A DNA stretch of 64,000 bases from Ruegeria sp. ANG-R. Its GTDB lineage: Bacteria; Pseudomonadota; Alphaproteobacteria; Rhodobacterales; Rhodobacteraceae. Position 1 is the first letter of the stretch. Each line of letters opens with the position of its first letter. Location of the stretch: assembly GCF_000813985.1 (NCBI RefSeq), contig NZ_JWLJ01000009.1, positions 1 through 64,000 of the forward strand, read 5' to 3'. This document shows, piece after piece, positions 8,590-41,725 of the stretch. The notes below the pieces were generated by a model. It worked only from the letters and a program-made list of their open reading frames with translations. It ran no database searches and had not been told where the DNA came from. Position numbers and translations under genes: made by a program.

Positions 8590-8595
8590 AATGTC

Positions 8596-10761: not shown

Positions 10762-10794
10762 GCGCGCCTCCAAAAATGTATGGTCATGAATAGA

Positions 10795-10806
10795 TTTATA
10801 TGTAAA
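10795..10806 (-). promoter_or_regulatory. Operator-like site TTTACATATAAA upstream of iorA
   Basis: The minus strand reads TTTACATATAAA inside the context TATTTTACATATAAATCT. The same 18 bases occur upstream of tctC (24518-24535). A TATAAA within the site could be the -10 element, so a bound repressor would block RNA polymerase. The site lies in the divergent gap between iorA and the aldehyde dehydrogenase gene and could affect both. Confidence 0.6.
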
Positions 10807-10876
10807 ATAAGTCAACGATAAGGTTTCACGTCATCTAAAATAGTTCACGCGAACAGGGAAAAAAGGGAAATAAATC

Positions 10877-12391: not shown

Positions 12392-12408
12392 GTGTAGGAG
12401 TAAGAAAC

Positions 12409-13779: not shown

Positions 13780-13781
13780 CC

Positions 13782-14813: not shown

Positions 14814-14831
14814 CTAAAAGGAGTTTGCCTC

Positions 14832-15956
14832 ATGGCACAAACCGAAATCAAACCCGAAGACGACATTCTGGGCCGTGCACGGGTGCGCGACACGCCTGAA
14901 CTGGAAGCCTATTACGAGGATCTGGCCAAGATCGAAACCGGCGCGCTGTGGACCGTGGCCAATGACATTGAGCCATGGGAACCGACGCCCAAATCGGCCC
15001 CGGTTCTGTGGCGCTGGGAAGACACGCGCCGTCAAGTTCTGCGTGCGATTGACCTGGTGCGTCCCGAAGATGCGGGTCGTCGCGTGGTGTATCTGCGCAA
15101 CCCGCTGCGAAAGGATGTGAGCGCGGCCTGTGGCTGGCTGTTCTCGGGTCTTCAGACGATGAAGGCGGGCGAACGGGCTGGCGCTCACCGACACGCCGCC
15201 TCGGCGCTGCGTTTTATCATGGAAGGCTCGGGCGCTTATACCATCGTGGATGGGCACAAGGTAGAACTGGGTGCGCGCGACTTTGTGCTGACGCCCAATG
15301 GCACATGGCACGAGCACGGCATTCTGGAGACCGGCACCGAATGCATCTGGCAGGATGGTCTGGATATTCCGCTGACCAACTGCCTTGAGGCGAACTTCTA
15401 TGAGGTTCATCCCAACGATTATCAGACCACCAACATCCCGATGAATGACAGTCCGCTTACCTATGGTGGTCCGGCGCTACTCCCGCAAACGGACAAATGG
15501 GACAAGCCCTATTCGCCGTTGTTGAAATACTCGTGGGAGCCGACTTACGAGGCTCTGCTGAACTATGCCAAGATCAGCGAAGGCTCGCCCTATGACGGGT
15601 TGATCATGCGCTATACCAATCCGCAGACAGGTGGTCATCCGATGATGACGATGGGGGCCTCGATGCAGATGCTGCTGCCGGGTCAGCACACCAAGGCACA
15701 CCGGCATACCGGCAACGTGATTTACAACGTCGCCAAAGGCTCGGGCTATTCCATCATCGGCGGCAAGCGGTTCGACTGGACCGAGCGGGACATCTTCTGC
15801 GTTCCTGCCTGGACCTGGCACGAGCATTGCAACACCTCGGAAGGTGATGATGCATGCCTGTTCTCGTTCAACGACTTCCCGGTGATGGAGAAACTGGGCT
15901 TCTGGGCGGAGCAGGCATTGGAAGACAATGACGGTCATCAGATCGTCGAGGGTTAA
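14832..15956 (+). CDS. Gentisate 1,2-dioxygenase-type bicupin ring-cleavage enzyme
   Basis: This 374-residue bicupin has a first cupin with GERAGAHRHAASALRFIMEG and TWHEHG (residues about 112-165), and a second with HTKAHRHTGNVIYNVAKGSG and TWHEHCN (about 278-335). The His residues would hold a non-haem Fe(II) that cleaves the ring between carboxyl- and hydroxyl-bearing carbons. Family members act on gentisate, salicylate, 5-nitrosalicylate or 1-hydroxy-2-naphthoate. It precedes a fumarylacetoacetase-fold hydrolase and a maleate isomerase, giving a full lower pathway. It starts 18 bp after nitrilase with AAAGGAG in front. Confidence 0.82.
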   Translation: MAQTEIKPEDDILGRARVRDTPELEAYYEDLAKIETGALWTVANDIEPWEPTPKSAPVLWRWEDTRRQVLRAIDLVRPEDAGRRVVYLRNPLRKDVSAACGWLFSGLQTMKAGERAGAHRHAASALRFIMEGSGAYTIVDGHKVELGARDFVLTPNGTWHEHGILETGTECIWQDGLDIPLTNCLEANFYEVHPNDYQTTNIPMNDSPLTYGGPALLPQTDKWDKPYSPLLKYSWEPTYEALLNYAKISEGSPYDGLIMRYTNPQTGGHPMMTMGASMQMLLPGQHTKAHRHTGNVIYNVAKGSGYSIIGGKRFDWTERDIFCVPAWTWHEHCNTSEGDDACLFSFNDFPVMEKLGFWAEQALEDNDGHQIVEG

Positions 15957-16013
15957 ACGCGAACAGCCCCTTCAAGCAGTGAAGCGGTGGGGGCCAAAAG
16001 AGGATATAAACCT

Positions 16014-16931
16014 ATGAAACTTGTGACCTACCGCGACAGCGCGGCCGGTGAGGGGCGCCTTGGTGTCGTCAAAGACGGGCTTGTTATTGACGTTGAGTAT
16101 CTGGGCGAAGCAGTGGGCGAGGCTCTGCCCTCGACCATGCTGGATCTGATCGATCTGGGCCCGGACGCCCAGGCCTCCATTACGCGAGCGCTTGAGGCCA
16201 CCGACGGGTCCCGCCCTGCAGGCATCGCGGTGCCGAAAGAGAACGTGCGGTTGTTGGCACCAATCCCGCGCCCGCGCAAGAACATCTTCGGCATTGGCCT
16301 GAACTACGTCGAGCACGTGGCCGAAAGCGCCAAGTCGCTGGACACTTCGAAGGATCTGCCGAAGGAGCCGGTGGTGTTCTCGAAGCCGCCCACATCTGTG
16401 ATCGCCAACGGCGAGCCGATCCAGCACAACGCGTCGATGACACAGATGCTGGACTGGGAGGTCGAGCTGGCCGTGATCATCGGCAAGCGCGCTACCCGCA
16501 TCAGCAAGGATGACGCGATGAGCCATGTGTTTGGCTATTCGGTGATCAACGATATCTCGGCTCGTGACAACCGCCGTGCTGGCCAGTGGATCTTTTCCAA
16601 GGGCCAGGACAGCTATTGCCCCTTTGGTCCGGCAATCATCACCGCAGATGATGTGGCCGATCCCCACAATCTGGATCTATGGCTGACCAAGAACGGTGAG
16701 GAAAAGCAGCGCTCGAACACCAAACACCTGCTGTTTGATATCCCGACACTGATCGCCGACATCTCGTCAGGCATTACGCTGGAACCCGGCGACATCATCG
16801 CCACCGGCACCCCGGCGGGTGTTGGCGCGGGCCGTGATCCGCAGGAATGGATGTGGCCCGGCGACGTGATCGAATGCGGTGTCGACGGCATCGGTGTGCT
16901 GCGCAATCCGGTTGTGAAGATTGGCGACTGA
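16014..16931 (+). CDS. Fumarylacetoacetate hydrolase family protein (maleylpyruvate/fumarylpyruvate hydrolase-like)
   Basis: The protein has 305 residues and a C-terminal FAH domain. Metal-binding Glu residues are seen in LDWEVELAVIIGK (near 147), with FGYSVINDISARDNR, FSKGQDSYCPFGP and TGTPAGVGAGR as further family motifs. Placed between a gentisate-type dioxygenase and a maleate isomerase, it most likely hydrolyses a ring-cleavage product such as maleylpyruvate to maleate plus pyruvate. No glutathione-dependent maleylpyruvate isomerase is present, which argues for direct hydrolysis. The ATG at 16014 follows AGAGGATATAAACCT. Confidence 0.8.
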   Translation: MKLVTYRDSAAGEGRLGVVKDGLVIDVEYLGEAVGEALPSTMLDLIDLGPDAQASITRALEATDGSRPAGIAVPKENVRLLAPIPRPRKNIFGIGLNYVEHVAESAKSLDTSKDLPKEPVVFSKPPTSVIANGEPIQHNASMTQMLDWEVELAVIIGKRATRISKDDAMSHVFGYSVINDISARDNRRAGQWIFSKGQDSYCPFGPAIITADDVADPHNLDLWLTKNGEEKQRSNTKHLLFDIPTLIADISSGITLEPGDIIATGTPAGVGAGRDPQEWMWPGDVIECGVDGIGVLRNPVVKIGD

Positions 16932-16932
16932 C

Positions 16933-17709
16933 ATGGCTGGCATTCAGGAAAACATGCACCAGACGCTCAAGATCGGGCAGATCGTTCCATCGTCAAACCT
17001 GACGATGGAACGGGAAATCCCGGCCATGCTGCGCGCGCGTGAAGAGGTGCTGCCCGAGCGCTTTTCGTTCCATTCCTCCCGCATGCGGATGAAGAAGGTT
17101 ACGAAGGAAGAGCTTGAAGCCATGGATCGCGACAGCGACCGTTGTGCTTTGGAACTATCGGACGCAGATGTCGATGTGATGGGCTATGCCTGCCTTGTCG
17201 CCATCATGTCCATGGGCAAAGGCTATCACCGCGAAAGCCAGAAGCGTCTGCATCAGGTGACCGTGGACAATGGACATCCTGCGCCGGTTGTCAGCTCGGC
17301 CGGTGCGCTGGTTGATGGTCTGCATCTGATGGGGGCCAAGCGGATTTCGATCGTGACGCCGTATATGCGTCCGCTGACCAATCTGGTTGCGGATTACATC
17401 GAGGCCGAAGGCGTCGAGGTGTCGGACAGCATCGCGCTGGAAATCCCCGACAACCTTGAGGTTGCCGCCCAGAACCCGCTGAACCTGACGGAGATCTACA
17501 AGCAGGTGAACCTGAAAAACATCGACGCGCTGGTCCTGTCGGCCTGCGTTCAGATGCCGTCACTTGCCGCGATCCAGAAGGTTGAGGACGAATGCGGCAT
17601 CCCGGTTCTGTCCGCAGCGGTCGCCACGACCCACCAGATGCTGAAAGAGCTTGGCCTGGACGCACGCGTTCCCGGTTGCGGCACGCTGCTGTCGGGCAAA
17701 TTTGCATGA
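16933..17709 (+). CDS. Maleate cis-trans isomerase (Asp/Glu racemase superfamily)
   Basis: This 258-residue protein has the maleate isomerase/arylmalonate decarboxylase pattern: KIGQIVPSSNLTMEREIPAML near the N-terminus and two active-site Cys, Cys87 (MGYACLVA) and Cys205 (LSACVQMPS). It would turn maleate into fumarate, feeding the TCA cycle. It lies one base after the FAH-family gene, consistent with maleate as that enzyme's product. An ATG at 16954 with AGGAAA close in front is an alternative start and would remove seven residues. Confidence 0.82.
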   Translation: MAGIQENMHQTLKIGQIVPSSNLTMEREIPAMLRAREEVLPERFSFHSSRMRMKKVTKEELEAMDRDSDRCALELSDADVDVMGYACLVAIMSMGKGYHRESQKRLHQVTVDNGHPAPVVSSAGALVDGLHLMGAKRISIVTPYMRPLTNLVADYIEAEGVEVSDSIALEIPDNLEVAAQNPLNLTEIYKQVNLKNIDALVLSACVQMPSLAAIQKVEDECGIPVLSAAVATTHQMLKELGLDARVPGCGTLLSGKFA

Positions 17710-23514: not shown

Positions 23515-24453
23515 TCAGTTTGCGTTCATCTCGGCAATGTTGCCCAAGGTCGCCCCGTCTTTTGCGATCTGTGCGGCGGCCTCTTCCGGGGTCTGCCAGT
23601 AGATCAGCGCACCGGTTTGCTGAGACAGCTCTTTCGCGGCATCGCTGGTTGCGACTTTCTGAGCGACGGCGATGATCTTGTCGCGTGCGTCCTGAGGGGT
23701 GTCCTTATGAACGAACAGGCCGTTCCAAGTTCCTAATTCTAGCTCGGGCTTCAACTCACCCAGAGTCGGCACGTCAGGCAGGATCGCGATGCGATCTTCT
23801 GTGACAGTGGCCAGCGGGGTGATGCTGTCGAGGCAGGGCTGAACCAGTTGCAGCGTGGTGTTGATCACATCCGCATCGCCCGAAGCAAGTGTGTTGCAGT
23901 CCAGCGCATCAAACGCGGCATCGCTGCCCCATTCAAAACCAAACGCTTCCTGAGTGGCCATGGTCACCTCGGTCGGAGAGGCACCAGCGCCAAAGTGGCC
24001 CACAACCAGGCTGTTGTCCTGCGCATGCGCGGCAAGCTCTTCCATGGTTTTAAACGGAGCGTCACCGGCAGCGGCCAGAATGAACGGGTAGGTCAGAAAG
24101 ATGCCCAAAGGCTCAAACGGGTCTTCTGCTAGGTCCGGAATACCGATCTGGGGGCCGACGATCGGGATATCCAGAACGAACGAACCAATGGTGTAACCAT
24201 CTGCTGGCTGGTTGGCCACGAACACAGCGCCCGGGAACGGACCACCACCGCCACCTGGCTTGTTCACAACTGCTGCAGGGACGCCGTAGGTAGCCTGAAA
24301 TTCATCGGCAATCATCCGGGTCAGAACGTCTTCAAGGTCGCCTGGGGGGAAGGGCACAACAAACTCAACCGGTTTTTCGGGATATTCCGCAACAACCGGC
24401 GCAGCGGCCAAAGTCGCCAGTGCGACCGACGTATAGAAAGCAATTTTCCTCAT
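23515..24453 (-). CDS. tctC: Tripartite tricarboxylate transporter substrate-binding protein, TctC/Bug family
   Basis: This 312-residue periplasmic protein has a signal peptide of about 22 residues ending PVVAEYPEKP. Bug-fold motifs VEFVVPFPPGDLEDVLTRMI, VVNKPGGGGGPFPGAVFVA and ADGYTIGSF line the ligand cleft. It is convergent with tctBA, which lack a binding protein of their own, so it most likely serves them. A close paralogue of identical length lies at 40644-41582. Its promoter contains TTGACT, a 16-bp spacer and TATAAA, overlapping the operator at 24521-24532. Confidence 0.87.
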   Translation of the reverse strand: MRKIAFYTSVALATLAAAPVVAEYPEKPVEFVVPFPPGDLEDVLTRMIADEFQATYGVPAAVVNKPGGGGGPFPGAVFVANQPADGYTIGSFVLDIPIVGPQIGIPDLAEDPFEPLGIFLTYPFILAAAGDAPFKTMEELAAHAQDNSLVVGHFGAGASPTEVTMATQEAFGFEWGSDAAFDALDCNTLASGDADVINTTLQLVQPCLDSITPLATVTEDRIAILPDVPTLGELKPELELGTWNGLFVHKDTPQDARDKIIAVAQKVATSDAAKELSQQTGALIYWQTPEEAAAQIAKDGATLGNIAEMNAN

Positions 24454-24636: not shown

Positions 24637-25581
24637 ATGCCAGCAATCGCATACGAGGTTGTAGCTGCCACCAGCGAAACACCCGATATTCGGCGTATCG
24701 TGATGAAACCGATTTCGCCGATTCCTGTCGTGTGGCGGGCCGGGGCGCATATTCGCGTCAACCTGCCTGAGGGTGGTGATCGCGCCTATTCCCTCCTGCG
24801 CCTGCCAAAGATGAAGGCCGGGCATCTGGCCGTTGGCGTTTTGCGCGAACCCAACAGCCACGGCGGTTCGAAATACATGCACTCGCTTAAGGCCGGAGAT
24901 TGGATACGTCTGAACAATCCGGCCAATCATTTTGAGGTGGAAGATCACGACGGGCCCTGCCTGCTGATCGCGGGCGGCATTGGGATCACGCCGATCTTGT
25001 CGATGGCCTCTGATCTGTCCAGAACCGACCGTGAGTTTGAGGTTCATTATGGCGGACGCGCTGAAGGTGCGCTGGCCTTTGTGCCCGAAATGCAGGAAAT
25101 CTGCGGTGACCGCCTGAACCTGCATTACGACGATCAGCCCAATCGGATGAATCTGGTCGAAATTCTGGAAAACGCCCCCGATAACTCGCATGTCTATTTC
25201 TGTGGCCCGCGCGGTATGGTCGAGGCGATCATCTCGATCACCGAAAACCTTGGCTGGGATGATGAGCGTGTGCATTTCGAGGTCTTCGCCGCCAATGCCG
25301 ATACCTCTGGCGATACTGCGTTTGACATTCAGATCCGCAGCACGGGTCAGGTTGTCAAAGTGGCGTCGGACAAAACCATCGTCGAGGCACTGGAGGAAGC
25401 AGGGCTTGACCCGCTTTACGATTGCCAGCGCGGCGATTGCGGCATCTGCCAGTGCAAGGTCCACGAAGGTGAGCCCGAGCACCGGGACGTGGTGCTGACC
25501 AAAAAGGAACGGTCGTCGAACTCGAAGATGCAAATCTGCGTTTCGCGTTCCAAATCCCCGAAGCTTGTCATCGACATCTGA
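24637..25581 (+). CDS. PDR/VanB-type oxygenase reductase (FMN, NAD(P)H, 2Fe-2S)
   Basis: This 314-residue protein is organised as flavin-binding barrel (RAYSLLRLP), NAD(P)-binding domain (LLIAGGIGITPILSMA, VYFCGPRGMVEAI) and C-terminal plant-type ferredoxin with the cluster motif YDCQRGDCGICQCKV plus a later Cys in MQICVSRS. It moves electrons from NAD(P)H to a Rieske oxygenase. It is the first gene of the operon and precedes the oxygenase alpha and beta subunits by 21 bp. A PDR-type reductase paired with an alpha-beta oxygenase is a less common combination. AGGGGCTAGAAA precedes the ATG. Confidence 0.85.
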   Translation: MPAIAYEVVAATSETPDIRRIVMKPISPIPVVWRAGAHIRVNLPEGGDRAYSLLRLPKMKAGHLAVGVLREPNSHGGSKYMHSLKAGDWIRLNNPANHFEVEDHDGPCLLIAGGIGITPILSMASDLSRTDREFEVHYGGRAEGALAFVPEMQEICGDRLNLHYDDQPNRMNLVEILENAPDNSHVYFCGPRGMVEAIISITENLGWDDERVHFEVFAANADTSGDTAFDIQIRSTGQVVKVASDKTIVEALEEAGLDPLYDCQRGDCGICQCKVHEGEPEHRDVVLTKKERSSNSKMQICVSRSKSPKLVIDI

Positions 25582-25602
25582 TTTAGGAAACAGGAGGAAG
25601 CA

Positions 25603-26949
25603 ATGGATCGCTACCGCGGGAACCCACAAGCCATCGCTGATCTGGTCAAGGGCTATGCTGTCCATCGTGACACATATGTAGATCAAGAAGTCTTTGACCT
25701 TGAGATGGAACAGCTGTTCCCGAACTGCTGGGTCTATATTGGCCATGAAAGCCAGATCAAGAATTCCGGCGATTTCATCACATCAAAGATCGGGCATCAG
25801 CCGGTTCTGGCCTCGCGTCATCGTGACGGTCAGGTCTATGTGATGCACAACCGTTGCCCGCACAAAGGCGTCAAGATCGCCTCCGAACCCTGCGGCAACA
25901 CCGGCAAGTTCTTCCGCTGCCCCTATCACGCTTGGTCGTTCAAGACCGATGGCTCGCTGTTGGCGATCCCGCTGAACAAGGGCTATGAGGGCACCGGGTT
26001 TGACGCGGATCGCGCGGCTCAGGGTCTGCCCCGGATCGAGAACGTGAAAATCTATCGCGGCCTGATATTTGTGCGTCTGGCTGAAAAGGGCCTGAGCTTT
26101 GAGGAATATTTCGGCGAGTCGCTGACCACGATCGACAACATGGCCGACCGCTCGCCCGAGGGTGAGCTTGAGGTGCTCAGCGCACCGATCCGCTACATGC
26201 ATTCGTGCAACTGGAAAATGCTGGTCGACAACCAGACCGACACCTGCCACCCGATGGTGGCGCATGAAAGCTCAGCCGGGACTGCGGTGAATGTCTGGGA
26301 ACGTGCCAAAAAGGCCAATCCGGATCTGGAAACGCCGATGGCCGTGCAGCTTTATGCGCCCTTCATGGCACCTTACGAATTCTACGAAGGCGCAGGTATC
26401 CGCGTTTGGCCGAATGGTCATGGCCATTCCGGCGTGACCGGCTCGATCCACCAGGACTACGAAGATGTCGATGGCTATCTGGGCAGGATGGAAGACGCCT
26501 ACGGCAAAAAGCGCGCGCATGAGATTCTGGGCGACGTGCGGCATAATACCAACTACTTCCCGAACATCATGGTGAAGGGTCCAGTCGGCATTCTGCGCAA
26601 CTTCATCCCGCTGGCCGTGGACAAGACGCTGGTCGAGAGCTGGGTGTTCCGATGGAAAGGCGCGCCGGACAAGCTGTATGAGCGGGGCCTGATGTACAAC
26701 CGCTTCATCAACGCGCCGACCTCGATTGTGGGCCATGATGATCTGGAAATGTACGAACGCGCGCAGGAAGGTCTGTTGTCGGACGGCAATGAGTGGATCA
26801 ACCTGCACCGTCTGTGGGAAGAGGATGAGGCCGAAGACACCACCGAAGTGGTCAACGGTACCTCGGAACGTCAGATGCGCAACCAGTTCTACGCCTGGCG
26901 CAAATTCATGATCCAGAACATGGAAAACACCGTGGAGGCCGCAGAATGA
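25603..26949 (+). CDS. Aromatic ring-hydroxylating dioxygenase, alpha subunit (Rieske)
   Basis: This 448-residue protein binds the Rieske cluster with Cys85-x-His87 and Cys106-x2-His109 (NRCPHKG, CPYHAW). The mononuclear iron ligands are His216 and His221 with the bridging Asp213 (TDTCHPMVAHE); a third carboxylate is probably in VGHDDLEMYERAQEG. It inserts O2 into an aromatic ring. The upstream reductase and downstream small subunit complete the system. Neighbouring CoA ligase, thiolase-like, OB-fold and isatin-hydrolase-like genes suggest an indole-acid substrate; that is inference. Other aromatic acids (benzoate- or salicylate-like) remain possible. Confidence 0.87.
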   Translation: MDRYRGNPQAIADLVKGYAVHRDTYVDQEVFDLEMEQLFPNCWVYIGHESQIKNSGDFITSKIGHQPVLASRHRDGQVYVMHNRCPHKGVKIASEPCGNTGKFFRCPYHAWSFKTDGSLLAIPLNKGYEGTGFDADRAAQGLPRIENVKIYRGLIFVRLAEKGLSFEEYFGESLTTIDNMADRSPEGELEVLSAPIRYMHSCNWKMLVDNQTDTCHPMVAHESSAGTAVNVWERAKKANPDLETPMAVQLYAPFMAPYEFYEGAGIRVWPNGHGHSGVTGSIHQDYEDVDGYLGRMEDAYGKKRAHEILGDVRHNTNYFPNIMVKGPVGILRNFIPLAVDKTLVESWVFRWKGAPDKLYERGLMYNRFINAPTSIVGHDDLEMYERAQEGLLSDGNEWINLHRLWEEDEAEDTTEVVNGTSERQMRNQFYAWRKFMIQNMENTVEAAE

Positions 26950-27419
26950 ACCGCGACGATCTGATTGATTTCGTCTATGACGAAGCCGCCATGCTGGATG
27001 ACATGCGGTGGGAGGACTGGACCAAACTGTTTGCCGAAGATGGCCGATACTGGATGCCGCTAGAATGGCAACAGGAAGACCCGATCCTGCAACCCTCGCT
27101 GATGTACGAAGACCTGCTGCTGCTGACCGTTCGGGTTGAGCGTCTGACAGGTGAACGGACCTTCAGCCAGAAACCCAAAAGCCGTAGCCATCACCTGATG
27201 GAACGGCCCCGTATCCTGTCGATGGGGGAAGAGGACGGTATATACAGAATGCGCACCTCGTTCCTTTACACCGAAACGCGGGGCGACCTGTTGGAACGCT
27301 ACTCTGGCTGGATCGGGCATCAACTGGTCGAGGTCGACGGTGCTTTGAAGATCAAGCAAAAGCGCATCGACCTGATCAACTTCGACGCACCCTTCAGCAA
27401 CATTCAGCTGTTTATCTGA
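26946..27419 (+). CDS. Aromatic ring-hydroxylating dioxygenase, beta subunit
   Basis: This 157-residue SnoaL/NTF2-like small subunit shows the early DDMRWEDWTKLFAEDGRYWMP segment and a C-terminal beta-rich half (SRSHHLMERPR, YRMRTSFLYTETR). Such subunits support assembly of the alpha3-beta3 oxygenase and carry no cofactor. Its ATG overlaps the alpha-subunit stop by four bases, so the two are translationally coupled. Confidence 0.85.
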   Translation: MNRDDLIDFVYDEAAMLDDMRWEDWTKLFAEDGRYWMPLEWQQEDPILQPSLMYEDLLLLTVRVERLTGERTFSQKPKSRSHHLMERPRILSMGEEDGIYRMRTSFLYTETRGDLLERYSGWIGHQLVEVDGALKIKQKRIDLINFDAPFSNIQLFI

Positions 27420-27427
27420 GGCACTTC

Positions 27428-29041
27428 ATGACATCCGAGACCGTTTACCGGCGCTTTTCTGAAACCGCCGCGCGCCGCGGTGACGCACCCTTTCAGCATG
27501 TTCTGGAAGAAACCGCAGGGATTTACGGAATCCCGGCGGGCGATATCTCTTATACCGATATGGCCGCACGTATTGAAAAATGGCGGCGACGGTTCGAGGA
27601 CGCAGGATACGGGGCAGGCCAACGCGTTGGCTTGCTGTTGCAGAACCGGCCTGTGTTCCTTGAAATCTGGCTGGCTCTGAACGCGATTGGTGTATCGGTA
27701 GTGCCGATCAATCCCGATCTGCGACTGGCCGAGCTGGAATATCTGGCCGAGCATTCCGAGATGATCCTGGCCATCGTTCTGGCCGATCGCGTGGATGAAA
27801 TGCGTCAGGCGGCCCAGAATGCAGGCCTGTCGATGCCGGTGATCACCGTCGATGACGATTTGCCCGCCGCAACCACTGCGCCCCGGGCCGGGGCCGAGCT
27901 GAACAGCGCGACGGAATGCGCGCTACTTTATACCTCGGGCACCACAGGGCGGCCCAAAGGCTGTATCCTGACCAACGAATACTACCTGCATTCCGGCGAC
28001 TGGTACGCGGAAACCGGCGGCCATATCAGCCTGCGCAAAGATTGCGAGCGGATGTTGACGCCGCTGCCGGTGTTCCACATGAACGCCATGGCGGTTTCGG
28101 TTACGGCGATGATCACCGTCGGTGGCTGCCTGATCATGCTGGATCGCTTCCACCCGCGCAGCTGGTGGGAGTCGGTACGCAAAAGCGGCGCGACCGTGGT
28201 GCATTATCTGGGCGTCATGCCCTCGATGCTGATGGTGGCCGAACCCTCTGATGCAAACCGCGACCACAATGTGCGCTTTGGCTTCGGCGCAGGTGTCGAC
28301 AAAAAGCTGCACGCGCCCTTCGAGGAGCGCTATGGCTTTCCGCTGGTCGAGGCCTGGGCCTGTACTGAGACCGGGTCCGGCGGTGTGATCAGCGCCCATG
28401 AAGAGCCGCGCCAGATCGGGACCTCGTGCTTTGGCCGCCCCTGCAAGGACGTCGCCGTGCGCGTGGTGGATGACGCAGGCAATGACGTTGCCACCGGCGA
28501 ACCCGGTGAGCTTTTGGTGCGCCGCGCCGGGGACAATCCGCGCTATGGCTTCTTCTCGGGTTACCTGAAAAATCAGGAAGCCACGGATGAGTTGTGGGAA
28601 GGCGGCTGGCTGCACACCGGCGATGTGGTCAGCCAGGACGCAGACGGATCGCTGCATTTCGTTGACCGCAAAAAGAACGTGATCCGCCGCTCGGGCGAGA
28701 ATATCGCGGCGGTCGAGGTTGAATCGATCCTCAACCGTCACCCCGAGATCAAGATTTCCGCCGCTGTCGCCGCCCCCGATGAGGTGCGCGGAGACGAGGT
28801 GGCCGTGTTCATGATCCTTGACGGGGTCAAGGGCGACGCCGCCAAAGCTGAAGAGATTGCAACCTGGGCGCTGGACCAGATGGCCTATTACAAAGTGCCC
28901 GGCTGGATCGCTTTTGCAGATGACCTGCCTTTGACCGCGACGCAGAAAATCCTGCGCGGACAGATGAAGGATCTGATGGTAAAGACGTTTGAGGAAGACG
29001 GCTTTATCGACACGCGGCACCTGAAGAAACGCAAGGTCTGA
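27428..29041 (+). CDS. Acyl-CoA synthetase / aromatic acid-CoA ligase (ANL superfamily)
   Basis: This 537-residue protein has the AMP/phosphate-binding motif LLYTSGTTGRPKGCIL, the core motif WACTETGSGG, the hinge segment GGWLHTGDVVSQDADG...FVDRKKNVIRRSGENIAAVEVE and the adenylation Lys in LTATQKILRGQMK. It forms acyl-AMP and then acyl-CoA from a carboxylic acid. Directly after the dioxygenase genes it probably activates the hydroxylated acid, before C-C cleavage by the following two proteins. It ends overlapping the next ATG by one base. Confidence 0.85.
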   Translation: MTSETVYRRFSETAARRGDAPFQHVLEETAGIYGIPAGDISYTDMAARIEKWRRRFEDAGYGAGQRVGLLLQNRPVFLEIWLALNAIGVSVVPINPDLRLAELEYLAEHSEMILAIVLADRVDEMRQAAQNAGLSMPVITVDDDLPAATTAPRAGAELNSATECALLYTSGTTGRPKGCILTNEYYLHSGDWYAETGGHISLRKDCERMLTPLPVFHMNAMAVSVTAMITVGGCLIMLDRFHPRSWWESVRKSGATVVHYLGVMPSMLMVAEPSDANRDHNVRFGFGAGVDKKLHAPFEERYGFPLVEAWACTETGSGGVISAHEEPRQIGTSCFGRPCKDVAVRVVDDAGNDVATGEPGELLVRRAGDNPRYGFFSGYLKNQEATDELWEGGWLHTGDVVSQDADGSLHFVDRKKNVIRRSGENIAAVEVESILNRHPEIKISAAVAAPDEVRGDEVAVFMILDGVKGDAAKAEEIATWALDQMAYYKVPGWIAFADDLPLTATQKILRGQMKDLMVKTFEEDGFIDTRHLKKRKV

Positions 29042-30216
29042 TGGCAAAACAGAAATCATATGACGGCGCGGTTGTCTGCGCGCCGGTGACTGTGCCCTAT
29101 GTGCGGTTTTCGCCAGAGACGGCACATTGGTGGACCGGGGCCGCGCTGGCCGAACTGTCGCGTCAGACGGGGCTTGGGCCTGCGGATTTTGACGGGTTCT
29201 GCTTTGCCAGTTTTTCGGCCGTGCCCGACAGTGTGGTGGGCATGGTCCAGCATCTGGGCCTCAGCCCCCGCTGGATGGACCATATCCCGACGGGCGGGGC
29301 CAGCGGCGTGATGGCGCTGCGCCGTGCGGCGCGCGCGGTTCAGGCGGGTGATGTGGATATCGTGGCCTGTGTTGCGGCGGACACCAACCAGATCGACAGT
29401 TTCCGGCAGACTTTGGCCGGGTTCTCGCGCTTTTCGCAGGATGCCACCTATCCCTATGGGTTTGGCGGGCCGAACGCGACTTTTGCGCTGATCACCGATA
29501 ACTTCATGCGCCAATATGGCATCGGGCGCGAAGATTTCGCCAAGCTCTGCGTGGCGCAGCGCGACAATGCGCTGTCCAATCCGACGGCGCTGATGAAGAA
29601 GCCACTGACGCATGAGCAATACATGAAGGCCCGTCCGATCTCGGACCCGGTGCATCTGTTTGACTGCGTGATGCCCTGCGCCGGGGCTGAGGCGTTTATC
29701 GTCACCACCCCCGAAAAAGCCGAAGAACTGGGCCTGTCCACGGCGCGGATCGCAGGCACCATCGAACGGCACAATGCCTTTGCCGAGGACGCTGTGCAGA
29801 CGCGCGGCGGCTGGGCGCGCGACATTGACGATCTGTGGCAGGCCGCAGAGCTTGGCCCGCAGGATATGGATATGGTTCAGGTCTATGACGACTATCCCGT
29901 GATCGTCGCCATGCAACTGGCCGATCTGGGCTTTTGCGACAAAGACAAGCTGCCAGAGTTCATTGCCCAGAATGACTTTACCATCTCGGGCTCACTGCCG
30001 CTGAACACCAATGGTGGCCAGTTGTCCGCCGGGCAGGCGGGCGCGGCTGGTGGGTTCCAGAACGTGACCGAAGGGTTGCGGCAGGTGCTGCATTGCCCGT
30101 TGGGCGATCAGGTGCCCGATGCGCGCCACGCGCTGGTGTCGGGCTTTGGTCTGGTGAACTATGACCGGGGCGTGTGCACCGGTGCGGCTGTATTGACGCA
30201 GGAGGTGCTGCGATGA
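29041..30216 (+). CDS. Thiolase-fold protein lacking the catalytic Cys (SCP-x/Ltp2-like, probable retro-aldolase)
   Basis: This 391-residue protein belongs to the SCP-x-like thiolase group, recognisable by the late NTNGGQLSAGQAGAAGG segment and DMVQVYDDYPVIVAMQL. At the usual nucleophile position it reads PTGGASGVMAL (residues 83-92) with no Cys. In steroid side-chain degradation, the thiolase-like Ltp2 needs a DUF35/OB-fold partner and performs a retro-aldol cleavage instead of thiolysis. Here the next gene encodes such an OB-fold domain, so cleavage of a beta-hydroxyacyl-CoA to a ketone plus acetyl-CoA is proposed. The mechanism is inference. Confidence 0.75.
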   Translation: MAKQKSYDGAVVCAPVTVPYVRFSPETAHWWTGAALAELSRQTGLGPADFDGFCFASFSAVPDSVVGMVQHLGLSPRWMDHIPTGGASGVMALRRAARAVQAGDVDIVACVAADTNQIDSFRQTLAGFSRFSQDATYPYGFGGPNATFALITDNFMRQYGIGREDFAKLCVAQRDNALSNPTALMKKPLTHEQYMKARPISDPVHLFDCVMPCAGAEAFIVTTPEKAEELGLSTARIAGTIERHNAFAEDAVQTRGGWARDIDDLWQAAELGPQDMDMVQVYDDYPVIVAMQLADLGFCDKDKLPEFIAQNDFTISGSLPLNTNGGQLSAGQAGAAGGFQNVTEGLRQVLHCPLGDQVPDARHALVSGFGLVNYDRGVCTGAAVLTQEVLR

Positions 30217-31451
30217 CCGATCCGTTGACGCCTCCGAAAAAGAAAGACCCGCTGGTCAGAACCCGCGCGGGCCATGTGCCTCCGGGGCTGCGATCCCGTG
30301 CGGCCAAGGCAATGGCAGTGCGGGCCGGGCAGGGGCAGTTTGTTTTGCAGACCTGCAACACCACCGGGCAGACGACCTATCCGCCGCGCGACCGCTCGCC
30401 CTTTACCTGGGATGAGCTGACCTGGCAGGAACAGCCCCGTGGCGCCGTAATTGAGGCCGTGACCACGATTGATGCCACCGTCGATCCGTTTTTCCGCGAA
30501 CATCTGCCCTGGCGCGTTGGCTCGGCCCGGCTGGATGCAGGCCCGATGGCGATTGTGCATCTGCATGGCGACGTCAAACAGGGCGACCGCGTGCGGATGG
30601 AGATCAAGCTGGACCGGGGCGGCAACCCGGCCCTGTTTGCGATGCCCGAAAAGGAGACACCGAACATGGCCGATGATCCGCAACTGCGCGTCTTTACTGC
30701 TGATCCGAAACTCCGCCGCGTTCTTGTCACCGACGGGCGTGGCCCGGTGGGGCAGGCCGTGGCGCAGGCCCTGCTGAAGGCCGGGGCCAAGACGGTCTAT
30801 CTGGGCAATGCCGACACGCTGATGCGCTATCCCGGTCAGGACCGGATCGAGGCCATCGAGGGCATCGAACCCGTCGCCCTGAACCTGACCGACACAAGCA
30901 GCACGCAGGAACTGGCGGCGCAACTGGGCGGCAAAGTGGAAATCGTCGTCAACACGGCACAGTTCACCCGTCAAAGCGGCGTGGGTTTCGGCGGCAAGTT
31001 GAGCGATCTGCAAACCGGGCTGGAAACCGAGGTGTCGGGCCTGATGCGTCTGGCGCAGGCCTTTGCCCCGGCGATGTCCGGGCGGTCGGATGATGGGGTG
31101 AACTCGGCTGCGGCCTTTGTTGACGTGGCCTCGATCCACGGGCTGACCGGAAAATCCGGTTTCTCGGGCGCGGCGGCGGCGGCGGCTGCGCGCCTGTCGC
31201 TGATATCGGGACTGCGCGGAGAGATGGCCCATACCGGCATCCGCGTCATGTCGGTTCTGACCGGCGCAATCGACGATGAATGGCACCAGAACGTGCCGCC
31301 CCCGAAGACGGCCCCCGTTCAGATCGCCAAAGCGGTGGTCGAAGTGCTGCAAAAGGGGCAGGAAACAATATGCGCGGGCGATGTGGCCAAGGACATTCTG
31401 TCCCGCTGGCAGGCCGATCCGCTGCTGACAATCCGGGAGGAAAACCAATGA
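30213..31451 (+). CDS. Fusion of DUF35-like OB-fold domain with a degenerate short-chain dehydrogenase domain
   Basis: This 412-residue protein has two parts. Residues about 40-145 match the DUF35/ChsH2-type rubredoxin-OB fold (LQTCNTTGQTTYPPRDRSP, GAVIEAVTTIDATV, DRVRMEIK), but only one of the four usual zinc Cys remains (Cys48). Residues about 168-400 are SDR-like with a cofactor loop VTDGRGPVGQAVAQALL. The SDR catalytic Tyr and Lys positions are both Ala (SGFSGAAAAAAARL after ASIHG), so oxidoreductase activity is doubtful. It overlaps the thiolase-like gene by ATGA. It is probably the obligate partner of that protein. Confidence 0.75.
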   Translation: MTDPLTPPKKKDPLVRTRAGHVPPGLRSRAAKAMAVRAGQGQFVLQTCNTTGQTTYPPRDRSPFTWDELTWQEQPRGAVIEAVTTIDATVDPFFREHLPWRVGSARLDAGPMAIVHLHGDVKQGDRVRMEIKLDRGGNPALFAMPEKETPNMADDPQLRVFTADPKLRRVLVTDGRGPVGQAVAQALLKAGAKTVYLGNADTLMRYPGQDRIEAIEGIEPVALNLTDTSSTQELAAQLGGKVEIVVNTAQFTRQSGVGFGGKLSDLQTGLETEVSGLMRLAQAFAPAMSGRSDDGVNSAAAFVDVASIHGLTGKSGFSGAAAAAAARLSLISGLRGEMAHTGIRVMSVLTGAIDDEWHQNVPPPKTAPVQIAKAVVEVLQKGQETICAGDVAKDILSRWQADPLLTIREENQ

Positions 31452-32239
31452 CCCAATCTGTTCTTGTTGATCTGGCGGCGGCGCTGGCCTCGGGTCAGGT
31501 GCGCGTTGTCGACCTGACCAACACACTCAGCCCCGAGTTTCCGGTGATCGTGCTGCCGCCAGAGTTTGGCCAATGCGCGCCGTTCCGGATGGAGAAAGTC
31601 TCGCGCTATGATGACAATGGCCCGGCGTGGTACTGGAACAACATCTCGATGAACGAACACACGGGCACGCATTTTGATGCGCCCGCGCATTGGGTGACGG
31701 GCAAGGATCTGCCCTCGAACACCGTTGATGCGATCCCGGCGCAGGATTTCATGGCACCGGCGGTTGTGATCGACATCTCGGTTGAATCTGCAGCGGATGC
31801 GGATTTTGTGGTGACGCGTGCGTTTCTGGAAAACTGGGAAAAGGAAAACGGTACCATCCCGCCGGGTCACTGGATTGCCCTGCGCACCGATTGGTACAAG
31901 CGTGTCGGCACGCCCGAATACCTGAACCTGCTGGAAGACGGCGCGCATTCGCCCGGGCCGGATGCCAGCGCGGTTGAATTCATGGTACATGACCGCAATT
32001 GCGTGGGTCTTGCGGTGGAAACCGTGGGCACCGATGCGGGGCAGGGGTTCCATTTCAATCCGCCCCTGCCGGCGCATTCGATCCTGCATGGCAATGGCCG
32101 TTTCGGCCTGCAGTGCCTGACCAATCTGGACAAGCTGCCAACCTTCGGCGCGATCATCGTCGCCTGCCCGCTGAAAATCGAAGGCGGTTCGGGCAGCCCG
32201 CTGCGCGTTGTCGCCCTGATCGAAGGAGAGGGCGCATGA
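31448..32239 (+). CDS. Cyclase-family metal hydrolase, isatin hydrolase-like
   Basis: The protein has 263 residues. It contains the complete metal-binding motif HxGTHxDxPxH (His71 to His81, EHTGTHFDAPAHW) of the kynurenine formamidase/cyclase family, which also defines the Mn-dependent isatin hydrolase. Isatin hydrolase opens isatin to isatinate in bacterial indole-3-acetate breakdown. Further conserved parts are WIALRTDWYKR and VGLAVETVGTDAG. It overlaps both neighbours by ATGA-type junctions. Kynurenine formamidase is possible, but no tryptophan dioxygenase or kynureninase is nearby. Confidence 0.7.
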   Translation: MTQSVLVDLAAALASGQVRVVDLTNTLSPEFPVIVLPPEFGQCAPFRMEKVSRYDDNGPAWYWNNISMNEHTGTHFDAPAHWVTGKDLPSNTVDAIPAQDFMAPAVVIDISVESAADADFVVTRAFLENWEKENGTIPPGHWIALRTDWYKRVGTPEYLNLLEDGAHSPGPDASAVEFMVHDRNCVGLAVETVGTDAGQGFHFNPPLPAHSILHGNGRFGLQCLTNLDKLPTFGAIIVACPLKIEGGSGSPLRVVALIEGEGA

Positions 32240-32955
32240 AAACCACTCTGATCACCGGCGGAAACTCGGGCATTGGTGCGGCGATTGCCGAATTGCTGCT
32301 GGTGCGTGGCGAAAAGGTTGTGTCGCTGGGGCTGGAACTGCCCGCGGCAGAGCATGAGAACCTGTTTGGCTACACCGCCGATCTGACCGACGCGGCCAAC
32401 ACGGCCGAGGTTGCGGCGCAGATCGCATCAGATCATCAGATCGACGCGCTGGTGCACAATGCGGGGATGATCCTGCCTAACCTGCTGCCCGATGCTTCGC
32501 CGCAGGACATTCTGACCCTGTCGCAACTGCACCTTGCCGCGCCTATGGCGCTGACGCAGGCAGTTCTGGCGGGCATGGAAGAGCGTGGTTCGGGCCGTAT
32601 CCTGTTCATCTCATCCCGCGCGTCGATGGGGATGCCGACCCGCTCGGCCTATTCTGCGACCAAGGCGGGGGTGCATGGCATGGCGCGCACCTGGGCGCTG
32701 GAGCTGGCCCCCAAGGGGATCACCGTCAACGTTATCGCGCCGGGCCCGGTTCTGACCGAGAATTTCTGGGGCATCGTGCCAAAAGACGGCGAATTGCAGG
32801 GCAAAATCGCCGATGGCGTGCCGGTCAAGCGGATCGGGACATCGGACGATATCGCCAATGCGGCTGGGTTCTTTCTGGATGACAAGGCCAGTTTTGTCAC
32901 CGGGCAGGTCCTGTTTGTCTGCGGGGGCACCAGCCTCGGTAGCCTGCCGTCGTGA
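32236..32955 (+). CDS. Short-chain dehydrogenase/reductase
   Basis: This 239-residue classical SDR has a cofactor motif ITGGNSGIGAAIAELLL, the NAG motif VHNAGMI, and an intact catalytic Ser-Tyr-Lys set (SSRASMGMPTRSAYSATKAG). The C-terminal PGPVLTENFW segment follows. It would oxidise or reduce a pathway alcohol or ketone with NAD(P). Unlike the SDR half of the fusion protein upstream, its active site is complete. The start at 32236 overlaps the cyclase stop and has GGAGAG upstream. Confidence 0.83.
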   Translation: MKTTLITGGNSGIGAAIAELLLVRGEKVVSLGLELPAAEHENLFGYTADLTDAANTAEVAAQIASDHQIDALVHNAGMILPNLLPDASPQDILTLSQLHLAAPMALTQAVLAGMEERGSGRILFISSRASMGMPTRSAYSATKAGVHGMARTWALELAPKGITVNVIAPGPVLTENFWGIVPKDGELQGKIADGVPVKRIGTSDDIANAAGFFLDDKASFVTGQVLFVCGGTSLGSLPS

Positions 32956-32961: not shown

Positions 32962-33564
32962 ATGTTCTACACGATTGAACAGGGTCACCCGTTCCGCCAC
33001 AACCCCCTCAGCGCCATTGTCACCCCGCGCCCCATCGCGTGGATTTCCACCCGCGATCAGGATGGGGTGGACAATCTGGCGCCCTATTCGTTCTTCAACC
33101 TCACGGCCTATGATCCGCCACAGGTAATGTTCGCATCTACCTTCACCAAACCCGATCAGGATCGCTCGAAGGACACGGTGTCGAATATCGAAGCCAGCGG
33201 CTTTTTCTGTGTCAACGTGGCCGAACACGCGGCGCGCGAGGCGGTCAACCACTCCTCGGCCCCGCTGGAGCGTGGCGTGGATGAATTCGCGCATACCGGC
33301 ATCGAAAAAACCGCGTGCGAAATGATCGACTGTAGCCGCGTCGCGCAGACTCCTGCGGCGCTGGAATGTCGGTTGAACCAGGTGATCGACCTGCCAGGTG
33401 AGAACAACCATCTGGTTCTGGGTTTCATCGAGGCCGTGCATATTCGCGACAATTGCATTGTCGAGGACCGGTTCGAGATCACAACCTATAAACCTCTGAC
33501 CCGGTTGGGGTATCAGGACTACGGCATGATCGAAGACACATTCAGGATGTCCCGACCCAAATAA
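32962..33564 (+). CDS. Flavin reductase family protein
   Basis: This 200-residue protein has the split-barrel flavin reductase-like domain: NPLSAIVTPRPIAWISTRD, then APYSFFNLTAYDPPQVMFAS and FCVNVAEHAAREAVN. Such proteins supply reduced flavin to two-component monooxygenases or act as FMN-binding oxidoreductases. No large flavin monooxygenase subunit is seen in the window, so its partner is unknown. It is six bases after the SDR gene, so probably co-transcribed. Confidence 0.78.
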   Translation: MFYTIEQGHPFRHNPLSAIVTPRPIAWISTRDQDGVDNLAPYSFFNLTAYDPPQVMFASTFTKPDQDRSKDTVSNIEASGFFCVNVAEHAAREAVNHSSAPLERGVDEFAHTGIEKTACEMIDCSRVAQTPAALECRLNQVIDLPGENNHLVLGFIEAVHIRDNCIVEDRFEITTYKPLTRLGYQDYGMIEDTFRMSRPK

Positions 33565-33612: not shown

Positions 33613-34386
33613 ATGAAAATCTGGTATCAAAGCTATGTCGATTATGAAAACGGGGCCGCGTATTGGGATGTTCTGAAACCGCATCTTGAGGCCTGCGTCT
33701 CGGACGGTACGACAATTGACATCCATGGCATCACCCCTTTCGACAGCTATGCGCACCCGCTGGTCGAATTCCGCTGCGCCCGCGAGATGATCTGCAATGC
33801 GATCCGGGCCGAGCGTGAAGGGTATGACGCGTTTGTGGTCGGCCATTTTCAGGATGCGGGACTTTATGAGGCGCGTAGCGTTGTCGACATCCCGGTGATC
33901 GGTTTGGGCGAGGCCACGATGCTTTGGTGCTGCCAGATGGGCCAGCGGCTGGGGATTGTGACGATCAACACCCGGTTCATTCCGTGGTTTCACCACCAGA
34001 TCGGCAAATACGGCCTGCGCGACCGCATTTCAGGCGTCCACGCGATGAGCTTTGAGCCCGGCCAGATTCTGGGCGCCTACGGTGATGCTGACAAGGCACA
34101 AGTGGTGAAGCGGTTGTTCGAAGAACAGGGCCGCCCTCTGGTCACCGAAGGAACCGATGTGCTGATCCCCGGTGGCGGCATTCCCATGCTGCTGTTTTCG
34201 CAGTTCCACGATCACCAGATCGACGGCGCGCCGGTGGTGAACGGTATTCCGATTGCGGTGAAATCGGCCGAAATGGCCGTCGCGCTCAAGTGGATGACAG
34301 GGCAGTGTGTCAGCCGGACCGGCGATTATTCCAAAGCCCCACCCGAGGTGATTGAAGAGTTCATGACCCATCCGAAAGGGTTGTGA
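33613..34386 (+). CDS. Asp/Glu/hydantoin racemase family protein
   Basis: This 257-residue protein has two racemase half-domains. The first acid/base site would lie in FVVGHFQDAGLYEARSVVDIPVIGLGEA and the second in DVLIPGGGIPMLLF. The Cys found at these sites in typical hydantoin racemases are not obvious: the first reads HFQDAG and the second GGGIP. Activity as a classical two-Cys racemase is therefore uncertain. It closes the operon begun at 24637. A decarboxylase or isomerase role on a pathway acid is possible. Confidence 0.65.
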   Translation: MKIWYQSYVDYENGAAYWDVLKPHLEACVSDGTTIDIHGITPFDSYAHPLVEFRCAREMICNAIRAEREGYDAFVVGHFQDAGLYEARSVVDIPVIGLGEATMLWCCQMGQRLGIVTINTRFIPWFHHQIGKYGLRDRISGVHAMSFEPGQILGAYGDADKAQVVKRLFEEQGRPLVTEGTDVLIPGGGIPMLLFSQFHDHQIDGAPVVNGIPIAVKSAEMAVALKWMTGQCVSRTGDYSKAPPEVIEEFMTHPKGL

Positions 34387-40643: not shown

Positions 40644-41582
40644 TCAGTTTTCACCGATAAGCGCGTCGATCTTGCCCAGAATCGTGATGTCGCTTTCGAT
40701 TTGCGCTGCCGACTCGTCGGCCCCTTTCCAATAAATGACTGCGCCGGTGTTTTCAGCCAGCTCCTTGGCCGCGTCAGAGTTCAGCGCCTTGATGGCAACC
40801 TCTTCGATCTTGGCGCGGATTTCGGGGGGCGTGTCCTTGTGTACGAACAACCCGTTCCAAGTGGACAGGTCCAGCTCAGGCACCAGCTCTCCCATAGTTG
40901 GGACATCCGGCAAAGTCGCGATGCGTTCGTTCGTCACGGCGGCCAGAACGTTCAGCTCATCCACACACGGCGCGACAAGCTGCAATGTGGTCGAGATTAC
41001 GTCTGCATCGCCCGACGCCAGCGTGTTGCAATCGAGCGCGTCAAATCCGGCCTCAGACGAGAACTCGAACCCCAGTTGGCGGGCGGCGGCAACCATGTGG
41101 CGGCGTGGGATGCTGCGGGCACCGAAATGGCCGAAGGTGACCTGATTGTCCTTTGCATAGGCCGCCAGTTCGTCGATGCTCGAATAGGGCGCATCGCCAC
41201 TGGCCGCGATTACGAAGGGGTAGGTCAGGAATATGCCAACCGGGTCAAACGGGTTGGGTGACAGTTCGGGAATGCCGATCTGCGGACCCACCACCGGCAC
41301 ACCGATCACGAATGAGCCAATCGTATATCCATCCGCAGGCGCTTGGGCCACATAGATCGAACCAGGGAACGGGCCACCGCCGCCACCGGGTTTGTTCACG
41401 ACTGCGGCAGGCACGCCATAGGTTTCCTGAAATTCATCGGCGATCATCCGAGTCAGCAGATCCTCAAGATCGCCAGGGGGAAAGGGTATGACGAATTCAA
41501 CTGGTTTCTCGGGATATTCTGCGGTGGCCAGCCCGGGCAGGGCGGTGGCTGAGAGCGCCAGAGCGGTAAGCAGTTTCTTCAT
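40644..41582 (-). CDS. tctC: TctC/Bug family substrate-binding protein (paralogue)
   Basis: This 312-residue periplasmic protein is a close paralogue of the one at 23515-24453 and has the same length: VEFVIPFPPGDLEDLLTRMI, VVNKPGGGGGPFPGSIYVA and ADGYTIGSF are nearly unchanged. The signal peptide ends about residue 21 (GLATAEYPEK). I chose the ATG at 41582, preceded by CAGGAGGGAGACC; a longer open frame to 41711 has no conserved residues. No TctA/B is adjacent, so it may share the tctBA permease. A LysR gene and a LysR-like site lie directly upstream. Confidence 0.85.
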   Translation of the reverse strand: MKKLLTALALSATALPGLATAEYPEKPVEFVIPFPPGDLEDLLTRMIADEFQETYGVPAAVVNKPGGGGGPFPGSIYVAQAPADGYTIGSFVIGVPVVGPQIGIPELSPNPFDPVGIFLTYPFVIAASGDAPYSSIDELAAYAKDNQVTFGHFGARSIPRRHMVAAARQLGFEFSSEAGFDALDCNTLASGDADVISTTLQLVAPCVDELNVLAAVTNERIATLPDVPTMGELVPELDLSTWNGLFVHKDTPPEIRAKIEEVAIKALNSDAAKELAENTGAVIYWKGADESAAQIESDITILGKIDALIGEN

Positions 41583-41689
41583 AAGGGTCTCCCTCCTGTT
41601 GGTTTGCGCGGCATGTTCTGTATGCGGCGCAGTATCGTGCCAGTCTGGGGCGGGGGCCGTTGAAATGAAAATACCGTTTGCAGGTGGGG

Positions 41690-41707
41690 TATATCTGTTT
41701 TGATATA
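41690..41707. promoter_or_regulatory. LysR-type operator TATATC-N6-GATATA upstream of tctC
   Basis: An interrupted perfect dyad TATATC-tgtttt-GATATA lies between lysR and tctC, about 110 bp before the tctC start. It includes the T-N11-A pattern of LysR-type regulators and overlaps the palindrome TGATATATCA (41701-41710). It is probably the binding site of the LysR protein encoded just upstream. Confidence 0.5.
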
Positions 41708-41725
41708 TCAAAGCGTAACGTCAGT

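Follow-up and report, generated by a model that had tools for sequence, protein, structure and literature searches.

IadG and IadH as a probable retro-aldolase pair in an indole-3-acetate degradation cluster of Ruegeria

The 64,000-nucleotide stretch analysed here (positions 1 to 64,000 of contig NZ_JWLJ01000009.1 from Ruegeria sp. ANG-R, hereafter the window) carries an indole-3-acetate degradation (iad) cluster, and two adjacent genes of this cluster, iadG and iadH, are the subject of this report. IadG (29041..30216, + strand, 391 aa) has a thiolase fold. IadH (30213..31451, + strand, 412 aa, ATG start) consists of an N-terminal DUF35/OB fold and a C-terminal pseudo-SDR (short-chain dehydrogenase/reductase). 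Judged from sequence, IadG and the OB half of IadH very probably form a retro-aldolase of the Sal/Ltp2 type, which would cleave dioxindole-3-acetyl-CoA to isatin and acetyl-CoA, with IadG as the proposed catalytic subunit and IadH as its proposed obligatory partner. From the observed anatomy, conservation and phylogeny of the pair, and from its partner and neighbour genes, we infer the substrate, the complex and the roles of residues. The first-pass annotation had located the pair at 29041-31451, and these coordinates were right. A longer GTG frame of IadH from 30174 does not begin at a conserved start, and the ATG at 30213 was used. The two genes overlap in the window as ATGA. The IadG set contains 43 rows from 40 sources, which were gathered by similarity and are mutually related, and therefore are not independent. 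In all 43, iadH directly follows iadG at a distance of no more than 7 bases, with an ATGA-type overlap in 31.

The iad pathway of Variovorax and Bradyrhizobium has the same gene set, in the order C-D-E-F-G-H-I-J as named there (PMC9613470, PMC10374108, PMC12633357). The two earlier papers name the locus and metabolites, and their accessible parts give no reaction for IadG or IadH (PMC9613470, PMC10374108). In the third, IadG and IadH were named ketothiolase and alcohol dehydrogenase from annotation, as its authors state, and a reductive side-chain removal to C8H7NO2 was proposed (PMC12633357); both proteins are re-assigned in the present analysis. Deletion of iadF, iadG, iadH or iadI in Variovorax lowered anthranilate and raised C10H9NO4, which was assigned to dioxindole-3-acetic acid (PMC12633357). 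That the iadG and iadH deletions both accumulate this compound is as expected if both proteins act at one step, and the block of the same step by the iadH deletion would be explained by a DUF35 partner role of the OB half. Among the literature matches listed, with subscription literature mostly outside their scope, no published retro-aldolase proposal for the C-C cleavage step of the iad pathway was found, and the accessible literature gave no purified enzyme assigned to that step of the aerobic auxin-to-anthranilate route.

The active site of IadG is not that of a Cys thiolase. As the first-pass annotation had noticed, GGASG (residues 85-89) stands where the catalytic Cys should be, and the alignment places Gly86 in the column of the nucleophilic Cys. 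Gly86, Y282-D283-D284-Y285, Gln327 and Gln332 are invariant in all 43 IadG. Tyr282 replaces the His of the thiolase HDxF motif, and GQA replaces GHP. IadG does have other Cys residues, and "Cys-less" applies to the nucleophilic Cys only. A ketothiolase function was rejected for IadG, as the nucleophilic Cys, the HDxF His and GHP are replaced by Gly, Tyr and GQ, respectively. As a control, 29 other thiolase-like open reading frames were compared, found among 30 listed Pfam PF22691 loci from 58 genomes of the window's class. Gly was found in 16, all with Tyr, and Cys in 13, of which 12 have His and one has Gln. Because the control splits in this way, Gly/Tyr and Cys/His appear to be alternative states, and IadG is in the Gly/Tyr state. 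Asp at position 284 was found in 0/29 of the control frames.

The best PDB sequence match of IadG is the Comamonas Sal aldolase (CtSal, 9myr; E 8e-46), ahead of 4u4e, 7yvy and Ltp2 (6ok1). CtSal acts with Shy, which bears DUF35, as a bile-acid side-chain aldolase, and shares with IadG-IadH a thiolase fold without the nucleophilic Cys, the Tyr of Y-D-x-Y, the motif GGQLSxGQxGxxGG and a DUF35 partner (PMC12329534). CtSal-Shy releases acetyl-CoA, and the same release is proposed for IadG-IadH. In CtSal, Tyr302 is the base and Cys304 the acid, with Gln347 and Gln352 near Cys304 (PMC12329534). In the alignment to 9myr, whose chain positions as printed are by our own count 24 above the numbering of PMC12329534, Gly89, Tyr302, Tyr305, Gln347 and Gln352 of CtSal are retained in IadG, and Tyr165 is Phe in 43/43. 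The steroid aldolase Ltp2-ChsH2(DUF35) (6ok1) also combines a thiolase-fold aldolase of the Gly/Tyr type with a DUF35 partner. Ltp2 cleaves a C17-hydroxy side chain to leave a ketone (PMC12502768), as is proposed for IadG at the C3-hydroxy. Ltp2 has YDHF and Tyr344, removes a propionyl residue and has MaoC fused to the DUF35 of its partner, whereas IadG has YDDY and Gln332, and an SDR is fused in IadH.

Phylogeny places IadG next to Sal. In a tree of 77 rows, the 43 IadG formed one clade with CtSal as sister (support 99/97). Because the program flagged long branches in this tree, a second was made, with seven more rows found with CtSal, IadG thinned to 19 and three motif blocks removed. IadG was again sister to the Sal clade (96/93), so long-branch attraction of IadG to CtSal was rejected. 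Five of the added Sal-like rows, with YDCY, group with CtSal, and the two with YDSF or YDAF do not. Two loci on Mesorhizobium and Sulfitobacter plasmids (L153, L154) have genes for a Sal-like YDCY protein, a zinc-ribbon protein and MaoC next to that for an acetoacetate-CoA ligase; perhaps these YDCY proteins are Sal-type aldolases outside steroid clusters. An AlphaFold2 model of IadG (13 rows) reached a mean pLDDT of 68.2 and a pTM of 0.78. Its first Foldseek match was 9myr_A, which was also top in the VIA fold comparison (Z 37.0, rmsd 3.4 over 369 residues).

The OB half of IadH matches the partner subunits of these aldolases. IadH has Pfam matches to OB_ChsH2_C (residues 71-131, E 5e-7) and adh_short (residues 170-360, E 3e-15). 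Because the Foldseek top 50 of the whole IadH model lists SDRs, the OB half was tested by a sequence profile (19 rows). Its three best PDB matches were ChsH2-DUF35 (6ok1_B, 3.6e-10), the DUF35 of an archaeal thiolase complex (6esq_E, 4.9e-9) and Shy-DUF35 (9myr_B, 2.8e-7). IadG and the OB half thus match both partner chains of the same crystals (9myr and 6ok1). In C. testosteroni TA441, aldolase activity was reported to require the DUF35 of ChsH2 (PMC12502768), and Sal binds Shy via DUF35 (PMC11321319). The DUF35 of IadH is N-terminal on a pseudo-SDR, while that of Shy is C-terminal to an active MaoC hydratase.

The degenerate zinc-ribbon and OB half of the window IadH covers about residues 40-131 (30330..30605, + strand). 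The first-pass annotation had described an OB fold that has lost three of four zinc Cys. This holds for the window copy, with 1/4 Cys left, but not for the family: the C4 pattern is kept in 42/43 copies with the window copy as the sole exception, and zinc loss as a family trait is ruled out. The window OB still passes the Pfam cut-off, and no other OB_ChsH2_C match is listed for the window genome. This OB is probably a zinc-free DUF35 within an otherwise intact pair, as far as the sequence tells.

The SDR half of IadH (Pfam match residues 170-360; 30720..31292, + strand) has lost its catalytic residues. In the window copy TDGRGPVG replaces TGxxxGxG, and the catalytic Tyr and Lys are both Ala, as the first-pass annotation had claimed. 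Among the 37 complete copies, Tyr is kept in seven, Lys in five and both in none; the replacements differ, and the pair is broken in all 37. Asp (32 copies) or Asn (five) has replaced the first Gly of TGxxxGxG. IadJ of the same clusters served as control for the dead SDR half, the window IadJ (32236..32955, + strand) being an SDR with intact Tyr/Lys and TGGNSGIG. Tyr and Lys are intact in 19/19 IadJ, a TGxxxGxG-like motif is present in 19/19, and the residue 13 before Tyr is Ser in 8/19 and Thr, Gly or Ala in the rest. IadH as an SDR dehydrogenase was rejected, with the Tyr/Lys pair in 0/37 and the nucleotide-motif Gly lost in 37/37. A decaying pseudogene was also rejected, as the dN/dS of the SDR half is 0.03-0.15 (12 pairs, shared lineages), which indicates purifying selection; it was lower than that of the OB half in 11/12. 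By its sequence, the SDR half can no longer act as an enzyme but is maintained as a domain. The nearest solved relative, both by sequence and by Foldseek, is the SDR 5u4s of Burkholderia cenocepacia, which was solved with NADP bound, whereas IadH is without the Gly motif and the Tyr/Lys pair.

Several counting rules apply to these numbers. The first genome scan for IadH gave 20 loci, of which ten (L001-L010) were IadH and ten were dropped as SDR-only or partial-SDR matches. The IadG of L079 matched in two pieces, and its IadG and IadH were excluded from the counts and its IadI was kept. The IadH of L076 and L077 are cut by contig ends; they were counted for adjacency and zinc but not for the SDR pair. 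The SDR count also leaves out four OB-only copies, namely that of L075 and the second copies in L001, L004 and L059. The IadH of L080 was taken from 8001, upstream of the annotated start (the frame is open without a stop). Start codons of unannotated genes were the analyst's choice.

The SDR half is not always needed, because OB-only partners occur. In L075 (genome G202), a complete cluster, F, G, J, D, E, I and iotA/iorB-like genes accompany an IadH of 157 aa that comprises just the zinc ribbon and the OB fold. At three Sulfitobacter loci, an OB-only partner of 133-139 aa goes with a second YDDY thiolase-like gene.

The first-pass annotation had said that the fusion of an OB fold with a dead SDR looks unusual. 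In 142 genomes of the window's class, 129 OB_ChsH2_C matches were counted by hand, two of them IadH copies (G000 and G065:C34), and 40 cases with long open frames were taken; 14 further long-frame matches lie outside the 40. A profile made from IadJ and the SDR halves of IadH (E 1e-5) matched 0/40 of these stretches, some of whose frames are cut by stretch ends, and the OB profile itself matched 36/40. OB-SDR fusion as a common architecture was thereby rejected. Where clearly matched, the OB falls in the later half of the open frame (stop-to-stop frames, with an untranslated lead possible), while it is N-terminal in IadH.

The gene following iadH encodes an enzyme for the proposed product. IadI (31448..32239, + strand) carries GLQC and HTGTHFDAPAH, matches isatin hydrolase A 5nnb (E 1.7e-108) and is 60% identical to it. 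GLQC together with the metal motifs was described as the isatin hydrolase activity signature, and isatin hydrolysis was measured for the Labrenzia aggregata enzyme (PMC6117287). According to the taxonomy file, Labrenzia aggregata is Roseibium aggregatum. On the plasmid NZ_CP045623 of Roseibium aggregatum SDL044 (L053), the gene directly after iadH is 96.8% identical to 5nnb over 252 residues, and because of this identity we infer that 5nnb is the Labrenzia chain. GLQC or GLAS is present in 35/37 IadI and the metal motif HxG[T/A]HxDxPxH in 37/37; the window copy has both. The gene iadI lies within 1 kb after iadH in 35/43. The eight without a close iadI are the three OB-only second copies, L075 (iadI elsewhere in the cluster), L054, L078, and L076 and L077 at contig ends. 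These results agree with the first-pass claim that isatin, the proposed product, is the substrate of the next gene, as IadI is an isatin hydrolase by its motifs and the 5nnb match.

The alcohol group of dioxindole-3-acetic acid is tertiary and lies beta to the carboxyl, and conversion of the acid to a beta-ketoester is impossible. Because this alcohol cannot become a beta-ketone, thiolysis is left without a substrate. Retro-aldol cleavage of dioxindole-3-acetyl-CoA gives isatin (C8H5NO2) and acetyl-CoA and is redox-neutral. C8H7NO2, the formula of dioxindole, equals isatin plus two H. In the proposed mechanism, IadF would make dioxindole-3-acetyl-CoA, a tertiary beta-hydroxyacyl-CoA. Tyr282 of IadG would remove the proton of the C3 hydroxyl, the C3-CH2 bond would break and isatin would be released. 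The acetyl-CoA enolate would then be reprotonated, probably via Asp284, and IadI would hydrolyse isatin to isatinate, en route to anthranilate. NAD(P)H would not be consumed in the cleavage. The SDR half of IadH would be a conserved pseudoenzyme domain that serves in docking or as a structural element.

Several observations weigh against this proposal. The most important one is that C8H7NO2, not isatin, was reported in the absence of iadI (PMC12633357), and Variovorax cells would therefore have to reduce isatin to dioxindole without IadI, a needed side reaction. Reduction of isatin to dioxindole by carbonyl reductases was described in mammals (PMC10934121). The retro-aldol reading requires that the dioxindole-like mass in that report comes from a side product. 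Both known general acids are also gone: Cys304 of Sal is Asp284 and Tyr344 of Ltp2 is Gln332 in 43/43 IadG, and Gln161, part of the oxyanion hole proposed for Sal, is replaced by Pro (34), Ala (6) or Thr (3). The CtSal variants C304A, C304S and C304H were dead, Asp at 304 not being among the variants reported in the accessible text, and Ltp2 uses Tyr294 and Tyr344 (PMC12329534). The IadG model has moderate confidence, with pLDDT under 50 around residues 84-87, 325-336 and 370-379, and its active site is modelled with too little certainty for distances to be used. Cys thiolases score nearly equally in the VIA comparison (7yvy Z 36.1, tied; 6esq 36.0, just 1 lower than 9myr), and because several thiolases lie within 2 Z of 9myr, the fold alone cannot choose between aldolase and thiolase. 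The window IadH has lost its own zinc site (residues 48-65, one of four Cys retained). Two of the 37 IadI are without the GLQC/GLAS signature, and no IadI was found near IadG-IadH in the fetched stretches of L054 and L078.

The first-pass proposal of a retro-aldolase pair modelled on Ltp2-ChsH2 is therefore supported inferentially, by the active-site columns, the Cys/His control, the trees, the fold comparison, the OB partner matches, the broken SDR pair and the next gene; Sal is, however, the better comparator than Ltp2, and the general acids of both are absent. Because Tyr302 is kept and Cys304/Tyr344 are replaced, the catalytic base is conserved but the acid is new in IadG. Asp284, at the site of Sal's catalytic Cys, is probably the general acid, as the alignment suggests. 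The proposed product is a ketone, in contrast to Sal's aldehyde. Because the known general acids are absent, the IadG family would be neither a Sal nor an Ltp2, and on present sequence comparison it is best classed as a new subfamily, sister to the Sal/Ltp2 aldolases.

Three other explanations were considered. An improbable one retains the retro-aldol reaction by IadG and the OB half, but lets the SDR half of some lineages bind nucleotide or weakly reduce isatin, with dioxindole as the true product there. The retained Tyr in seven and Lys in five of 37 copies, the purifying selection on the SDR half over the 12 pairs and the observed dioxindole formula (PMC12633357) are in its favour, but no copy keeps both residues, 37/37 have Asp or Asn for the first Gly of TGxxxGxG and L075 is without the SDR half. 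The assignment as printed is very unlikely: with IadG as ketothiolase and IadH as alcohol dehydrogenase, IadF-G-H would produce dioxindole by reductive removal of the acetyl side chain. It agrees with the annotation names quoted and with the build-up of C8H7NO2 both in the iadI deletion and in a strain with iadCDEFGH, J and K2 (PMC12633357). However, it requires a ketothiolase without its cysteine (43/43 IadG) and a dehydrogenase without its catalytic residues, the SDR pair being broken and the first Rossmann Gly lost in 37/37; an iad cluster exists without the SDR half (L075), the tertiary alcohol offers no beta-ketone for thiolysis, and an isatin hydrolase would require reoxidation of dioxindole first. 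Least probable is a retro-aldol reaction of IadG-IadH on another beta-hydroxyacyl-CoA, such as a ring-opened form, since the isatin hydrolase gene within 1 kb in 35/43 and the C10H9NO4 accumulating without F, G or H (PMC12633357) speak against it, even though the Paroceanicella F-G-H set without a nearby isatin hydrolase (L078) and the Sulfitobacter YDDY paralogs with OB-only partners suggest more than one substrate in the family.

If the retro-aldolase assignment is true, auxin side-chain cleavage would be a redox-neutral retro-aldol reaction to isatin and acetyl-CoA, filling a gap in the known pathway. The route would fit the downstream isatin hydrolase, and dioxindole in cultures would become a side product. 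The Sal/Ltp2 kind of aldolase would extend beyond steroid metabolism, with a new catalytic pair and a pseudoenzyme-fused partner. It could be useful for building auxin-degrading plant symbionts or carboligating biocatalysts. Going further, we lean slightly towards a wider reading of these sequences. In it, IadG would be a third catalytic type of thiolase-fold retroaldolase outside steroid metabolism (Tyr-Asp, versus Tyr-Cys in Sal and Tyr-Tyr in Ltp2), and the pseudo-dehydrogenase of its partner would be a scaffold that perhaps clamps CoA or passes isatin on to IadI. On this view, the Paroceanicella cluster and the YDDY paralogs whose partners are OB-only would provide further aldolases.

The second YDDY thiolase-like genes are 55-56% identical to IadG and lie with their OB-only proteins at L001:10814-12411, L004:10831-12410 and L059:9541-11126. 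Their sequences suggest that these pairs are probably aldolases for a related substrate. On a Paroceanicella profunda plasmid (L078:5171-9086), a CoA ligase, an IadG-like protein and an OB fold with a degenerate SDR are encoded together, with no isatin hydrolase or oxygenase in the fetched stretch. This pair is a candidate aldolase with another substrate.

Full-length OB+SDR IadH was found in 8/385 sampled genomes of the class (two more are cut by contig ends and one is OB-only), the remaining 11 matching genomes of that sample giving SDR-only matches. In the phylum it was found in 8/398 genomes; the window genome is counted in both samples. The IadG query matched 5/299 genomes drawn around G725. 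Plasmid copies were found in Ruegeria, Roseibium, Sulfitobacter, Novosphingobium, Shinella, Paracoccus and others. No iadDE-like oxygenase genes were found in the fetched stretches, some of them short, around G-H-I in L003, L055, L058, L060, L062-L067, L069 and L071-L074. Because several G-H-I sets are without nearby iadDE-like genes, G-H-I looks like a lasting unit.

In the window, one run of genes at 24637-32955 encodes a reductase, Rieske alpha and beta subunits, a CoA ligase, the thiolase-like protein, the OB+SDR protein, a cyclase-family hydrolase and an SDR. These kinds match those reported under the names iadC, D, E, F, G, H, I and J in Variovorax paradoxus CL014 (PMC12633357), for which L070, from the same phylum as the window but another class, was used as a stand-in. 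By open reading frame and domain search, the genes before iadG, all on the + strand, are IadC, the oxygenase reductase (24637..25581), IadD, the Rieske oxygenase alpha subunit (25603..26949), IadE, the oxygenase beta subunit (26946..27419), and IadF, an AMP-binding acyl-CoA ligase (27428..29041), the proposed source of dioxindole-3-acetyl-CoA (role proposed in PMC12633357).

A flavin-reductase-like gene follows iadJ at 32962-33564 and is also present in L006. The window further contains an Asp/Glu-racemase-like gene (33613-34386) and an arylmalonate-decarboxylase-like gene (16921-17709). A relative of the racemase-like gene lies near iadG-H-I in 11/37 scanned sources including the window, and further in L080 and L081. 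At 7018-10815 (- strand), genes resemble the indolepyruvate oxidoreductase pair iotA/iorB (iadA/iadB), as judged by TPP and POR domains. Aldehyde dehydrogenase, class-III aminotransferase, CN-hydrolase, cupin and FAA-hydrolase genes occupy 10877-16931; as a guess, the cupin and FAA hydrolase could serve a gentisate-type ring cleavage downstream of anthranilate. Solute-binding-protein-like paralogs lie on either side of the cluster, at 23515-24453 and 40644-41711 (both - strand), and share 66% identity over 307 residues.

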